From Salminus brasiliensis (lineage: Eukaryota; Chordata; Actinopteri; Characiformes; Bryconidae), in assembly GCF_030463535.1 (NCBI RefSeq), contig NC_132891.1:9730949-9794948 (forward strand): a stretch of DNA of 64,000 nucleotides. The letters are read 5' to 3'. A program made the position numbers and the translations under genes. Shown piece by piece: positions 21,884-63,619 of this stretch (the first letter of the stretch is position 1; each line of letters starts with the position of its first letter). The notes beneath the pieces were generated by a model. That model saw only the letters and a list, made by a program, of their open reading frames with translations, was not told the origin of the DNA and did no database searches.

Positions 21884-24800
21884 ATGAAGGACAAACAGAA
21901 GAGAAAGAAGGAGCGTACGTGGGCAGAGGCCGCTCGTATGGTAAGCTACACACGCGTTTATCGCCACGGTGTGGTGTTTGGTGCGAGATTGGTGCGATTT
22001 CTCGGCACCGAGGACCGGACAAAGCTGCTGCGGACGCTCGGGCTGTTCCCGCAGAGGGAGCGCTCTCACGCCGCATCGTGTTGCAACCCCCAGCCCCTGG
22101 CTTACGAAATGATGGTTGTGGGAAATCAAAAAAAACGCTGCCAGAGTCATCGAGACGAACAGCAGCTTTGCTTAAGGCTCACAAATGAATGGAGGGGCAC
22201 AACTTGTAGCTTAGCCGTGTTAGCACCGCTACGCGTTTGACCCTTTGTTTGCAAGACTTGTAACTAAATAGCTAGCTAGCGTTAGCCTGGTGGATATGCT
22301 AGCCCCTAACCCTAGCTAGCAGGCTGGCAAGCGAGAATATCCACCCGTAGGAGCCTTTCGTTACACAGCAGCCTGTTTTTCAGTAGAGAACAGTGTGCGA
22401 TTGCAGGCGGTAAACGTAGCGTTTGCTGAAAACGACAGGCCGTTTGTTTCCACATGCTGCTGCTGCTGCTGCTGCTGCTACTACGCAGTATGTGTTTCCT
22501 AGCCGTAGCCTAACCCAGTGTGCAGGCAGGGGAGCGAGCATAAGCAGCACATTGCACAATCCCTGCATGTGTGAAATGCGTGTTGTCACTTACAAGCCTG
22601 TAGACTCGTGGCTCTTTCATATCAAGGAAATGTAATTCAGTAGAGCCTAGATGACAATGCTTTCTTCAGTGTTGGTCACATATACCCTCTCCATCCATCC
22701 AGCCACCTCTGCTCTTTATTACATGGACGTGGACAGCATTGGCTAGTTTTCCACTGCTGCAGTACACACCAACTCAGTGTCCTATAAACGAAGGTTGGGT
22801 TTGCTATGACTGTTCCTGGGTAATGGATGCAAGGGACATCCCGTTAGGCCCCATCAATCTGCCATCAATCTGCTCATCGGCTGCAAAAGCTAGAGATGGC
22901 CTAGAAACATGCAGGTACTGTAAGCTGCATTGCTGTTACCGGTTAAAAGACAGTCTACCCTCTTCATTCATCCCTTCAGGTACAGTGTGGTAGTGTACTG
23001 TACTTTGCAGAGGGTTCAAGACACCTTGCCATACTATTTAAGGACATTACTCTCTGCAATGAGTGTTTGTTTTGCTTGTAGGAACTCCAGATCACATTGC
23101 AAGAAGATATAACAAATACAGTAATACATAACTATGACAAATACAATCATGATATTTAAAGACATTTTGCATGTAATCACAGACCAAACACATCAGTAGC
23201 AACAGACTCCTAAAACTACTATACAGATACTCTACTGTACTTCTGCTACGGGACAACATCTGCTCCTCTTCTTCTAATTAAACCAGTCTAGTTATGTTGT
23301 TTGTAACGAAACATGCAGTTGATCAATGTTTAATAGGCATGGGCAATATCCTTGATATCCTATTATGCATCACAATGATCAATTTTATTCCCATACCATA
23401 AAATATCGTCATATTGCCCAGCTCTAGATCTAGTTTAGAGAACAAAGCTTGGTTCCAGATTTCTCCAGCATGTGAATTTTTTCAATTTCATCAGCAGCTC
23501 ACCTAATCTAACATCAGTAAGCACTGATTTACCAAACCAGGTCTCAAACGGTGACTATAAATAATACTAGACTTCCAGGAGGAGAGGGCTAATGAACTGT
23601 GAACAATGTAAAATCACTATGTTTAGTTAATGTTTTGTATTTATTGTAATATTAGTGTTTTACTGAGCAAATAAACACTATAAACTGTCCTGATGAGGAG
23701 CTTTCTAAATTCTAACTTTCTCAGGTGCCTGAAACTTTTGTGCAATACTGTATGTGTGTGTGCATATACACAAGAATTTCTTTTAGGCCTGTTATTCTGA
23801 TCATCTGTCAAGAAAACTAGAGATGTTCTAAAATCTTAAGTTTGGCTTGAAATAATTTGATGTTCAGAGCCACAAGGGTTAGGGTTGGGGAGTGCAGCCG
23901 ACACCCCCATTGCAGGGAGTTACATATACATAGGCTATGTATACAGTAGCATTGCTATTACAGGTTAAGAGGTCTCATGACATCAGAATCCGGGGGAGAA
24001 GGAGCTTCCGGTTTCAGATGCTCTGTAAGCGTTGAGTGGCAGCCAAGAGCAGAGTTTTAGATTGGTCACAAGGTTAAAAAAATAAAAAAACGGACGCTTG
24101 ACACGTCTTTTGCTTCTCAGGACTGGACCCTCCCAAAACCATAGTAGTAGTTTTAGATATTTCAGTCAGGTGAGATCTGAACACTCAGATGCCTTTGGGA
24201 AACAGGGCCCTGGTTTATTAAAAAGGGGTCTTTTCACATTTGTATGTCTAGCCTCAGTCTCTTCCACAACATTGGCTCACTGCAAAGGATATACTCCCCC
24301 CAGCACGACAGCAGTAACGTATGAACTGCACTTCAGTTTCTGGCATGAGCTAACTGAAGGCCGAAATCTAAATCCACGCCGTGTCGGCACAGCCGCCGTT
24401 ATCTTGTGGCATTTGCTGCTGCGACTCTAAGGTTACCGTTTAGGGTGGGGTGCAGACAGCCGCCCCACATTTTGTCGTTTCAATTCCCTTGTGAGAATCT
24501 TGCATTTCATTAGTTGAAGAGACCAAAATAGAAGGCGTAAGAGGCGACAATATCAGAGGTACAGTCTTTAAAAAATAACACAGCCAAAAACTGAAAAAAA
24601 CGCTGAAGACCCACCTTTGGTTCTTAAAGGGAGTCTATATGTACATAAGACGAGCATGTCTGAAATACCTCTTGACATTTTGTAGAACCTCGTCGAATTT
24701 ACAGGAGGGGTGTCCAGTCCTCCTTTTGGGGATCCGCCTATCTGCAAGGTTCACCACCATCTCAGATTGGATGGAACACCCCTCATTCAGCTAATCAAGA

Positions 24801-27800: not shown

Positions 27801-30800
27801 CACAAAGTTCTGAAAGAAATGCTAAATGCAGGACTGCTGTTGGAGGAGTAACTGCCAGTAGCTGCTGCCAACAAGAACCAGCTCTAGATTTAGAGCTGAC
27901 GTATGTGGTTGGAGTAAATGTGTATTCAGCAGTGTGAGCCTATGTATGTTCCACTTGTGAAATGTGCTTCTCCATTTCCTGTCCCCTCCCCCACCCCCCC
28001 ATAAAGGTTCTTGAGGACTTCTCTGATGCCCCCATGACGCCTAAACAGATCCTTCAAGTCATCCAGACAAAGGGACTCAAAGAAATGAGGTTTGTTCTGA
28101 ATGCACAATTTAGTGAAGGCTAATGTTCACAGATGTTTATAGAGGTTTATGGACACTCCTTCTAATAAAGACATTCAGCTAATTTGAGCTGCACTCGTTG
28201 CTTATGTGCAAATGAATGAACGTACGCAGCCACAGACACGACTTGTCTAGTCCCTGTAGAAAAGCATAGCCAATAGAATAGGCCTCTCTGCAGTAGATAA
28301 ACCATGAACTTATTAGTACCATGCCTATTGTCAAGTGTGGGCTAGAGGGGTACAAATCCTCCCCGCAATCCGCAATAAGCTATGTAGCAGTGGAACTCTG
28401 GAATGATGGATGATGCTCCATCCCATATTTTTGGGATACGCTGGGGAGTTGGGGGTGAGGTTGGGGTGGTGATCATCCAACATCCTAACTTTACTGACGC
28501 GTTTGTCGCTGAATGCAAACAAATCCTCACAGCAATGCTTCAGAATCTAACAGAAGTCCTTCCCTGCACAGTAGAGACAGTTACTCCAACAAAAAAGCAT
28601 GATTAACTCTTTCTTAATATCCTTGATTTCTGAAGGAACAATGAATGAGCAGGTGTCCCAATACTTTTGTCTGTATAGTGTATGTTACCTATGTTTTCTG
28701 CTTGCATAGTAAATACAGTACTTTTTTTTTGTCTCCCTTTTTATGTGATCTGCCTCGTCTGCTCTCATCTGTGTAAATAGAAGGTAAGGTTTTCGGACTT
28801 GTAGGATGTATTTTTTTTTTTTAAAGGTATCCTCCAGTGTTTCTCAGCCAGCTTTATCTGTACTATGGGCTGGTGCTGAAGCAGCTGCCCATTGGCTTCT
28901 ATAATAAGTACGCCTTTATTTGGGTCAGTGAGTTTTTCATACAGGGAAATGCCTTTAAATTGTAATGGTCTGCCTTCTGCGGCTGCAAGAGTTTGGTATT
29001 GGGTTGAGAAATGCTGGGATACTCCTTTACCATACTAATCTGAATTCTATAACATCCATCCCATTCTTCTGGCTAAATGTGCTGTACTCCTCTAAAAATG
29101 ACTTCTCACACAGTGGCACAGCCCCGCTGGCCTGCCTGGTCACCATGCTCCACTCCCAGGTGAGGGGGGACAGAGTGAAGAACAGCATCTTCTTTAAGCT
29201 GCCTGGAAGGATGAGCCTCTTCACCCTAAAGGTAGAAATGATGCACTTGTTCTCCTTGCTGCACACCTTCGCTTAATCGGTTCTCTGTAGAGCTGTACAA
29301 TACGTGGCTGTTGCTTGTATTGTGGACATGTTGCTGGAAATTGCAGTTGCAGTGCATCTTTACTACTGTATGTTAAGAATGCACTGGTCAGTAATTTAGC
29401 ATGATTGACTATTGGCCTGCATACCTTCATCAAAACGTGCATCTGGACCTATGATTGACCTGTCAAGATGGTCATCACGCTCAGTAAAAACAACGGGCCT
29501 TGTTTACCAGCTGTTCTTAGGAAGATTTCTTTTCCACGAAGCTTCAGACCTTCTAAAGTGTTGTCTCATTTGGGATTTGCATAGTTTATGAGGACCTTGG
29601 GATCCAGCATTATAAGAGCTTAGCTGCCAACAATTCAGTGGTTTAAAACCTCATGTATCTGACTTCCTGGCACTCTTTTTAGTTGATGCTTTTCTCAAGA
29701 ACAAACTTAAGAAAATTCTTAGAAGTGAGGCCCTCTTGTGAGTGATTGATTGATTGAAAAAAGGGGAGTCCAGCACGGTTTGCTGATTTCCCTGCCCTAA
29801 CAGACCTGCTAAACCTGAATTGAGCAGGAAAAGCACAAACCTGTGCAGAAATCCGTCCCTCCAGGACCAGATATGCCCACCCCTGGGTTATGGTCGTTAT
29901 TTGTGTATAACAGCATTCAGTCATATCAGTAATACAAAAACCAGTGTGGGAGTAATGCTTAACAAAGCTGTCCAGCCATGCTCTCAAGATGGGGGGGGGG
30001 TTCAAATAGTAATTGGAGTGATGCCATTGAAGAACCACTTTTTTTCAAACTTTTTAGAGTCCGAATGCTGATCTGGGATCAGTTATGGTTTACTGAAGTC
30101 AGTTAGGCAGCTCTTGAGGGGTGATCTCAGATTGCTTATTGTTTTACTTGAAGATGCTTGATAAATGAGGCCCTGTGTTTGTAATGGAGATGTGTGAATG
30201 TGAAGAACCTTCACTTGATGTAAAGGGGATATATATATATTTAATTATAATTAAGTAATTTAAAGCAATGTGAGCTTTACTCGCATGCCCATCCGTTACA
30301 AACATGGTTCCTTATAGAACCAAGATTGGTTCTTCTATGGCATCGCTTTGGCGTAGGAGATTAATATGAATGATGAACTTGTTATACTGTTTTAGTTTGG
30401 TGCACCCCAGCTGTTGATGCTCTGGTTATGTTTCTCCTACTCCCCCCCCCTTCAGAAAAATGCCCCGCAATGGTCGAAGAACCCAGCAGCATCCGAGGCC
30501 GCTGACCCAAGCTGCACATCGGCAGCTTCAACCACAGTCGGAGCAGCGGAGGGGGCGGAGCAGGAGAGCTGTGACTCCACAGAGACTGCTGCTGCTAGTG
30601 GTGAGAATGATGGTGTGTAAAATTCTGCTGATTGGTTCATTGGTAAACCCCCCCCCCCCCCCCCCCCCCATTGGGTCATTTAGCCACTCAAGCAGTATCT
30701 AAATGGCTAATGGATGCTTATGAAACCCAAATGAGAAACATGCCTCCTTTCATCCAAAAAAAGAAGCCTGAAATACATTGCATTAGAGCAGTCAGAGGGG

Positions 30801-36800: not shown

Positions 36801-39800
36801 GTGAGTTCACACACGAGATGCAAGTTCGCTTTAGACAAGAGATGGAGAAGGAAAAGAAAGTGGAGGCGTGGAAGGAAAAGTTCTTTGAGGAGTATCATGG
36901 CCAAAAGTAAGATTTCATGATCTTGCAATCAGATCCCATTGTAAAAATATTCTTGTGCTGGAATTTCTCTTAAACGCTCCACTAATCTGTTCCAACAGGT
37001 CTGGCTTGACCCGTGAGGAGGCACTGAAGCTCACAATGAGTGATGCAGGAGATGTTGCTGAAGCTGTGTTGGGGGCTGACACTGCTGCTGTGGCAACACC
37101 CAAGAGGAGAGGTGTTGGAAGGCGGCGGAGAGAGGGTCGTATTAGGAGGCGATCACGCGCTGACCTCAGGCGCAGGGCCCGTCGGCCACTCAGCAAGGCT
37201 GCTCCCACAGCTGTGGCTCAAGCAGAAGCAGAAGAAGAAGAAGAAGAAGAAGATGACCAAGCTGCATCAGACATTGCCACCACTGCTGCATCACCTGTGC
37301 CAGAGACTGCTGCGGTCCAAGGAGAAATCGTCCTTCCAGCAGATCCAGAACTGGAAGCACCTGCAGAAACCCTCTGTCCAGAAGCAGTCCGGTCCCCCTC
37401 CCCTGCTCCTGCATCCACTCCTGTTCCCACTTCTACAAGCTCAGTCTGCGATGAACCAGAAGCTTCCACCCGCCTGCTGCCTGAAGTCGTTGAGCCAGCT
37501 GTTGCCTCCACCTCCTCTCCTTCTTCCTCCTCTTCCTCAACATCGTCATCGTCCTCTCCTTCCTCATCACCTTCCTCTACCTCCGACCGGCCAGGCGCCT
37601 TCGCTGCCAGCTCCGACTCCTCGTCATCTTCGTCTTCTTCCTCGTCCTCCACTGCTGCTGTGGCCACCGACCCGCTTGACGATGGAGCCTCGGTCATCAC
37701 CACTGGTACAGCAGGCACTGGTGCCAGCAGCAGGGAGAGCAGCCCAGCTGCAAGTCCCGCTACAGCCAGCCCCGCTATTCAGCTCAAGGATCAGAAGAGG
37801 AGACCCGAAGAGTCCCAGGCCTACACCAGCTTCCCCGAGAAAAGGGCGCGGCTGGATGAGCGTCAGTCCTTTCGTAACACAGTTGACTGTGTGCACTCAG
37901 AAAAGCCACAGCCGACAACCGAGGAGCCCAAGGTCCCGCCAATCCGGGTATGAGGAATTTGTATTTTAATTCCTGTAATGTTTGCCGGTTTTGACAGAGA
38001 TCCTTAATTCCGGAGGAAAAAGTTGGTTGTTCTAATTGACAAGTATGCCTTTATGATTTTAGTCATGCATATTAATTATTCTTTTCATGAAGGTCTGAAC
38101 TTTAATTGCTTTTCTAAAGTGACATTCCTTTTTTTCTTTTCTTTTTCCCCCTATCTTCTTTCCCCTTCTTTCCCCTTCCTCTTTCCCTTTTTTCCTAGAT
38201 TCAGCTCTCCCGGATCAAACCGCCCTGGGTCAAAGGGCCGCCAACGTACCAAATCTGTCCCCGCATCGTGCCCCCCAACGAGGGGTCGCGGCGCAGTGGG
38301 ACGGGGGCGCGCACCCTGGCGGACATCAAGGCCCGTGCCCAGCAAGCCCGTGCACAGCGGGAAGCCGCTGCTGTTGCTGCAGCCACTGGGGACGGGGCAG
38401 GGCCTGGGGGGGGCGGCCCGGGGGGTGGTACTGGGATACCGGATCGCTCCAGCGGGAGACGTTCGAGAGAGCACCCGGGTCCCATTGAACCAGGAGGAGG
38501 AGGAGGAGGAGGAGGAGGAGGAGGAGGAGGAGGAAGACGAGGAGGAGGAGGAGGAAGAGTTGATGTGGAGGAACAGGAATCGCCTGCGAGCTCTCATTCG
38601 TCTGGAGCACAATTACAGCTATCCAATGTAGAAACTTCAGAGAAGCCTCAGGCCTCTACCCCACAGACTGTACCGTCGCCGTCCTCTGTATCCTCTAATC
38701 CTTCTGTGCTGCTATCAGAGTCTCCTAAAACCACCACACCCTCACCACCTGAGGCAGACAGTCCAGCCTCCCAGGACCAGGTGGAAGAAATTTGTGGTGT
38801 AGAGGAGGTGGCCACTTGCTCTAGTGACAAAGCCTCAGAACAGACCTTAGACACTCCAGTGCCTACTCCAAGTGAGACAGAGTCTGTAAGCAGTCACCAA
38901 GAGGCCAGGGGCGATGAAGCAGATTCTAGTGACAGCAGAACAGTGACTCCTAGTTGTACACCGGTGCCCAATGAAGCAGTTAATCTGGTTCCCACATCCA
39001 TACCTGATTCACTGCCTAGGTTTGGTGCTCAGGGTGTTGATGTGATCAGAACCCTTGCAGCATCCTCTCAGTCTTGGGAAGGTGAACAGAATCAGAATGA
39101 GCATCGTTGTAGTACTACTGGGGTCATCCAGCATGGCTCAGATGTCAAAGGCCCCAAAGAGACTCTTGTTACAACCCGAAACGGTTTTGTAGAGGGTTCA
39201 GAGGAGCGTGGAGTTAGGCAGAGAACACTGCAGGAACATAAGACTGGAGAGACTGATGCTGATTGTAAATATGGAAGCTATGAAACTCCTCTCCCTTGTC
39301 CTCCAGATACCACCAGAGAGGAAGATACTGGGATGCACAGCGACTCCACGGAGACAGCATCAGATTTTGAGAACGAAACTCAAGAGGATGACACCGTGGA
39401 CTGGCATAGAACGATGGACCATAATGGAGTGCAGGCTCAGAATACGAAATCCCAGAATCAGCCTGTCATCCAGACACCAAGCCGAATTACCTCGTGCACT
39501 TTGAGCCCTCCACAGCACCAGCAGCCAGTCATTCAGGCCCATGTCTCTAACCCTGCCCATAGTCAAACTGTCATTCAGGCTCGTTTTCCCAATGGCATGC
39601 CAAACCAGCCAGTAATTCAGCCTCAAAAGCAACACACAATCCGCCATTCCCAAGAGCAAAACTCCAATGCCTTGACCCAGGCCCATGTGCAATCATACCA
39701 TACACAGGGAGAGAAGGACCAAAGCAGAGCTCAAAGTCTGAACGAGAACAGCAATGGTGGCAAGCTGTTTGTCCCAGAGGATGATACTAAAGCGTTCAAC

Positions 39801-44686: not shown

Positions 44687-49094
<4,408 letters not shown>

Positions 49095-55089: not shown

Positions 55090-63619
<8,530 letters not shown>

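Follow-up and report, generated by a model that had tools for sequence, protein, structure and literature searches.

On the forward strand of the 64-kb stretch of Salminus brasiliensis DNA that we analyzed here (the window) lies a gene of the ASXL family, whose Pfam matches run from HARE-HTH (PF05066) to PF13919 and then PF13922 (ASXH, Asx-type PHD), with the order of the family kept. We placed 12 exons of this gene, asxl1, including the candidate 3-nt exon that is the subject of this paper, vs. 13 in human, and the placement was made partly by comparison with an approximate human sequence. The coding part of exon 1 (21884-21940, 57 nt, donor GTAAGC) gives 19 residues that match the ASXL1 N terminus of PDB chains 8h1t_N and 8svf_L; exon 2 (28007-28089, 83 nt) ends ATG-AG before a weak donor, GTTTGT; and exon 4 (29114-29231) follows the acceptor CACAG/TGGC, begins T-GGC, and ends ...SLFTLK. 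Together, exons 1-4 make the HARE-HTH domain, and the preliminary description counted correctly when it put 140 nt of coding sequence (57 nt from exon 1 and 83 nt from exon 2) upstream of the tiny exon. Exon 4 has peculiarities of its own: a weak acceptor (-5.2, by approximate splice matrices) and, in the alignment, three residues more than the PDB ASXL1 chains have.

Farther along the gene, TCC_TTT_CGT, the ribosomal frameshift site of ASXL1 that is described in passages of PMC5644247, is present at 37867-37875. After a +1 slip at that site, 168 codons are open across the last splice junction (38199 onward), and they end in ...LEHNYSYPM with the EH[N/S]Y motif reported in the same passages. 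The last asxl1 exon also contains a low-complexity repeat (38493-38567) that reads as poly-Gly in frame 0 and as poly-Glu in the +1 frameshift frame. Downstream of asxl1, on the opposite strand, are a PCMT-domain exon at 48714-49094, presumably of pcmtd2, and C2HC zinc fingers at 58376-58747, presumably of myt1.

Between exons 2 and 4, at 28781-28783, stand the three letters AAG, with TAAATAG as the putative acceptor on one side and GTAAGG as the donor on the other (in genomic context, CTGTGTAAATAG/AAG/GTAAGGTT); 691 nt of intron come before them, and 330 nt come after. On re-inspection, the letters, their coordinates, and their phase between the ATG-AG and T-GGC exons all proved correct. With AAG included, the message reads ATG AGA AGT GGC, which is M-R-S-G within KEM-R-SGT: the AG of exon 2 and the first A of the microexon form the added arginine codon, AGA, and the last AG of the microexon and the T of exon 4 form AGT, serine. 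With AAG skipped, it reads ATG AGT GGC, or M-S-G. The frame is kept both ways, and the codon reading bears out the earlier claim that inclusion adds one arginine without a change of frame. The corresponding junction strings are ATGAGAAGTGGC for inclusion and ATGAGTGGC for skipping. Upstream of the acceptor is a 60-nt stretch with no AG (28719-28778), in which we find a pyrimidine tract as well as the motifs TGC (-30 and -21) and CTCTC (-19), all numbered relative to the acceptor.

How good are these splice sites? By these approximate matrices, which give scores in bits, the microexon donor reaches 7.26, the highest of the four donors of exons 1-4 (exon 1 has 5.09, exon 2 has 0.58, and exon 4 has 0.48), and the word “strong” in the preliminary description suits it. 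The acceptor, TAAATAG, is present, but it was overrated there: its score is only -0.23, which is modest, and six of the nine bases immediately before AAG (TGTAAATAG) are purines, the pyrimidine tract being farther upstream. When donor and acceptor are combined, AAG is the best of the five AG-NNN-GT sites in the asxl1 intron (minus the outermost bases of the intron) at 7.03 bits, a lead of ~10 bits over the next one, at -2.9. In the whole window, it is the sole site to reach its own score among 486 AG-NNN-GT sites (245 on the forward strand and 241 on the reverse), and none of the 117 such sites on both strands of five other fetched loci (L007 and L009-L012, of which L009 is part of the window) attains it.

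Chance must be given its due, all the same. Dinucleotide shuffles of the intron produced a site with at least the real score in 44 of 5000 trials, and in 11 of the 5000, the triplet also coded for R-S in frame. Shuffles of the whole window (n = 60) gave a mean of 0.47 sites this strong on the forward strand, so that site strength alone proves nothing: in 64 kb of DNA, a single site this good is nothing unusual. The case for an exon rests on other things, namely its place, its phase, the residue that it adds, and a paralogue.

With regard to the residue, PDB chains 8h1t_N and 8svf_L (both Polycomb group protein ASXL1) align through KEMRSGT without a gap, and this is the inclusion-only form. PDB sequences give residues and not exon borders, and R stands at the same place in both chains; 8svf_L is 1541 residues long, which is also the number of codons given for human ASXL1 in PMC5644247. 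That 2017 frameshifting paper lists, in its Fig. 1 legend, 13 exons for human ASXL transcripts, among them “exon 3 (3 nt),” with junctions said to be experimentally confirmed. The human 3-bp exon that the preliminary description mentioned is, in other words, already in print; what is new here is AAG in the asxl1 gene of this genome and in its asxl2-like paralogue. The arginine falls inside the HARE-HTH domain (the Pfam match covers 11-85 of the joined protein). The match scores 73.0 bits with the arginine and 73.9 bits without it, and because the score is slightly higher without the residue, the domain does not need it. That the arginine alters DNA binding by HARE-HTH is a guess.

The paralogue came from a genome search (1.07 Gb, 103 contigs), which found another ASXL gene, on contig C10 (the window's gene is on C14); by comparison with an approximate human sequence, we take it to be asxl2-like. 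Exon 2 has 83 nt in this gene as well, its flanking exons are of matching phase, and the same intron as in asxl1 holds the same three letters at C10:19289801-19289803 (TCTTCCAG/AAG/GTAAGATTA, that is, CAG/AAG/GTAAGA), with the short and long intron halves in the opposite order (274 nt before and 2004 nt after). Inclusion gives KEI-R-SGT, skipping gives KEI-SGT, and the frame is kept either way. The splice signals around this AAG are much stronger than those in asxl1: the combined score is 14.29, first of nine sites in the 3001-base locus (L008), where the next site has -0.85. Not one of 3000 shuffles of this intron reached 14.29; 41 of the 3000 reached the asxl1 value, and the triplet was AAG in 5 of those 41. 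The five splice sites scored in the asxl2-like gene are all strong (6.85 to 9.95), and no TGC is found within 60 nt of its microexon acceptor. We considered whether a long AG-free zone might be a mark of a microexon and rejected the idea, because other acceptors of asxl1 have similar lengths. The zone is 60 nt long before the asxl1 microexon and 69 nt long before the asxl2-like one; four further acceptors of asxl1 have 43-103 nt, a range in which 60 is ordinary, and two acceptors of the asxl2-like gene have 23-36 nt. Across the window, 86 of 4378 distances from one AG to the next are at least 60.

The genome was searched for asxl3 with three queries (an approximate human ASXL3 N terminus, the window's C-terminal PHD, and the asxl2-like N terminus), and they did not find it. 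The gene may be absent from this genome, or it may have been missed by these queries, each of which returned one or two weak rows (L007, L011, L012, and L017) besides the only two clear ASXL loci, those on C14 and C10; L011 and L012 contain no fitting PHD motifs. No ASXL relatives turned up among 57 pattern-matching stretches of prokaryote contigs or among 11 matching stretches of viral contigs.

Identical letters at identical phase in asxl1 and the asxl2-like gene suggest descent from a single exon. That is, one old exon, predating the asxl1/asxl2 split, best explains the AAG found in both, and independent gain would be the weaker reading. The preliminary description put the age of the exon at about 430 million years, and the paralogue would suggest an origin older still. 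AAG is also what the donor consensus has on its exonic side, so that some of its conservation may be owed to splicing rather than to the arginine.

AAG at 28781-28783 is, with high probability, a real exon and, as an internal exon of at most 30 nt, a microexon: exon 3 of asxl1, the counterpart of the human ASXL 3-nt exon 3. Its use in Salminus brasiliensis mRNA is very likely, and it would normally be included in asxl1 transcripts. Could it be a chance resemblance to splice sites, with exon 2 joined straight to exon 4? The 0.47 sites expected per strand in 64 kb and the slightly better HARE-HTH score of the skipped form lean that way, but such a coincidence would have to stretch over the just 44 of 5000 intron shuffles that do as well, the same AAG in the paralogue, a human exon of 3 nt (as printed in the legend in PMC5644247), and the arginine in the PDB ASXL1 chains, and we find it scarcely credible. 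Only a shade better, and still very improbable, is the proposal that the site is a recursive one of zero length, at which the AG of AAG would act as the acceptor and no residue would be left in the mRNA. This AG does directly adjoin GTAAGG, as it would at a ratchet point; as an acceptor, however, it scores -3.38 vs. -0.23 at TAG, which is itself the first AG to follow the 60-nt AG-free run, and there are also the small size of the entire intron (only ~1 kb) and, once more, the arginine of the ASXL1 chains to be reckoned with.

Regulation is a more serious matter. Neural microexons are regulated by SRRM4, through UGC motifs, and by PTBP1 repression, and the exon in asxl1 could be a real but regulated one, a variant that is compatible with our main reading: its inclusion would be tissue biased (neuronal, for example, via SRRM4-type UGC motifs and relief from PTBP1), and there would be two forms of HARE-HTH. 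The TGC and CTCTC motifs upstream of the asxl1 acceptor, the weak donor of exon 2, the modest microexon acceptor, the weak acceptor of exon 4, and a frame that survives skipping would all suit such control, and a passage of PMC8355340 reports a mouse Asxl3 microexon (its size is not given in that passage) as preferentially included in circular RNA. The asxl2-like gene, however, lacks TGC within 60 nt of its own acceptor and has uniformly strong scored sites, and the form of ASXL1 selected for deposition in the PDB has the arginine. We consider regulated inclusion possible but doubtful.

If AAG is a normally included exon, how might a splicing apparatus see it? With only three nucleotides, there is no space for an exonic enhancer, nor could two splicing complexes be accommodated simultaneously, and AAG would be too short to hold the factors of both of its splice sites at once, which points to stepwise splicing. 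AAG, as the exonic part of a donor site, would then be retained between two introns that are removed one after the other. In one order, exon 2 and AAG would be joined first, and a strong donor, GAGAAG/GTAAGG, would be rebuilt in place of the weak GTTTGT (7.26 bits vs. 0.58 bits for exon 2's own). In the other, the GTAAGG donor would be joined first to exon 4 to make an ordinary exon of 121 nt, to which exon 2 would be joined later. The AG-free 60 and 69 nt upstream of the two microexon acceptors would permit a distant branch point, as would the similar stretches at other asxl1 acceptors. Inclusion of the 4-nt exon of MPC1 is attributed to exon definition in a passage of PMC9929638, and this counts against the stepwise model, for which we judge the chances to be about even. 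A larger synthesis can be imagined, in which a 3-nt exon older than the duplication and constitutive in both genes is in effect a recursive site that has kept the three letters on the exonic side of its own donor and has been preserved for an arginine that tunes DNA binding by HARE-HTH. We offer it tentatively, as a conjecture that is rather unlikely to hold in full.

Exons of 3 nt probe the lower limit of exon recognition, and here a single genome supplies a pair of them, one with weak flanks (asxl1) and one with strong flanks (asxl2-like), as a ready system for studying how microexons are recognized. The same pair is suited to asking what effect one residue has on the DNA-binding domain of ASXL proteins. 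A more mundane consequence is suggested as well: ASXL gene models in such species are worth checking for a missing codon.

The literature that we searched yielded no paper pairing ASXL1 with the term microexon or micro-exon, and the main text of PMC7821500 has no ASXL. What PMC4148152 describes is an exonic insertion and not an exon. Precedents for tiny exons exist, and they compel a qualifier to the earlier statement that AAG ranks with the smallest possible exons: for Arabidopsis APC11, an exon of 1 nt is reported in a 2015 paper, which states that, before its own case, the smallest known constitutive exon was 6 nt and the smallest alternative one was 3 nt (both in passages of PMC4674806). 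Even smaller exons than ours, then, get spliced, although that one differs from AAG of asxl1 in belonging to a plant, in having a single nucleotide, and in being constitutive and essential for the frame. The 4-nt exon of MPC1 (as described in passages of PMC9929638) is constitutive and closer in kind: it too is ultrashort, and the information for it is supplied by a consensus donor and by the 3' splice region, 67 nt of which, together with a 6-nt donor, are enough for inclusion. Distant branch points have been mapped for it at -68 and -63, and unlike AAG, it is not a multiple of three, so that skipping it breaks the frame. Micro-exon 8 of Drosophila homothorax (in passages of PMC7392893) resembles AAG in being 3 bp, in lying in a developmental regulator, and in having persisted over long evolutionary times, but the gene is unrelated, and its three nucleotides start an alternative exon of 48 nt. 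The nearest relative remains exon 3 of human ASXL1, ASXL2, and ASXL3 (in the legend in PMC5644247), which is of the same family and the same 3 nt and which has KEM-R-SGT as its counterpart in the ASXL1 chains; it is the exon of another species, and the likeness is one of exon size, position, and residue.
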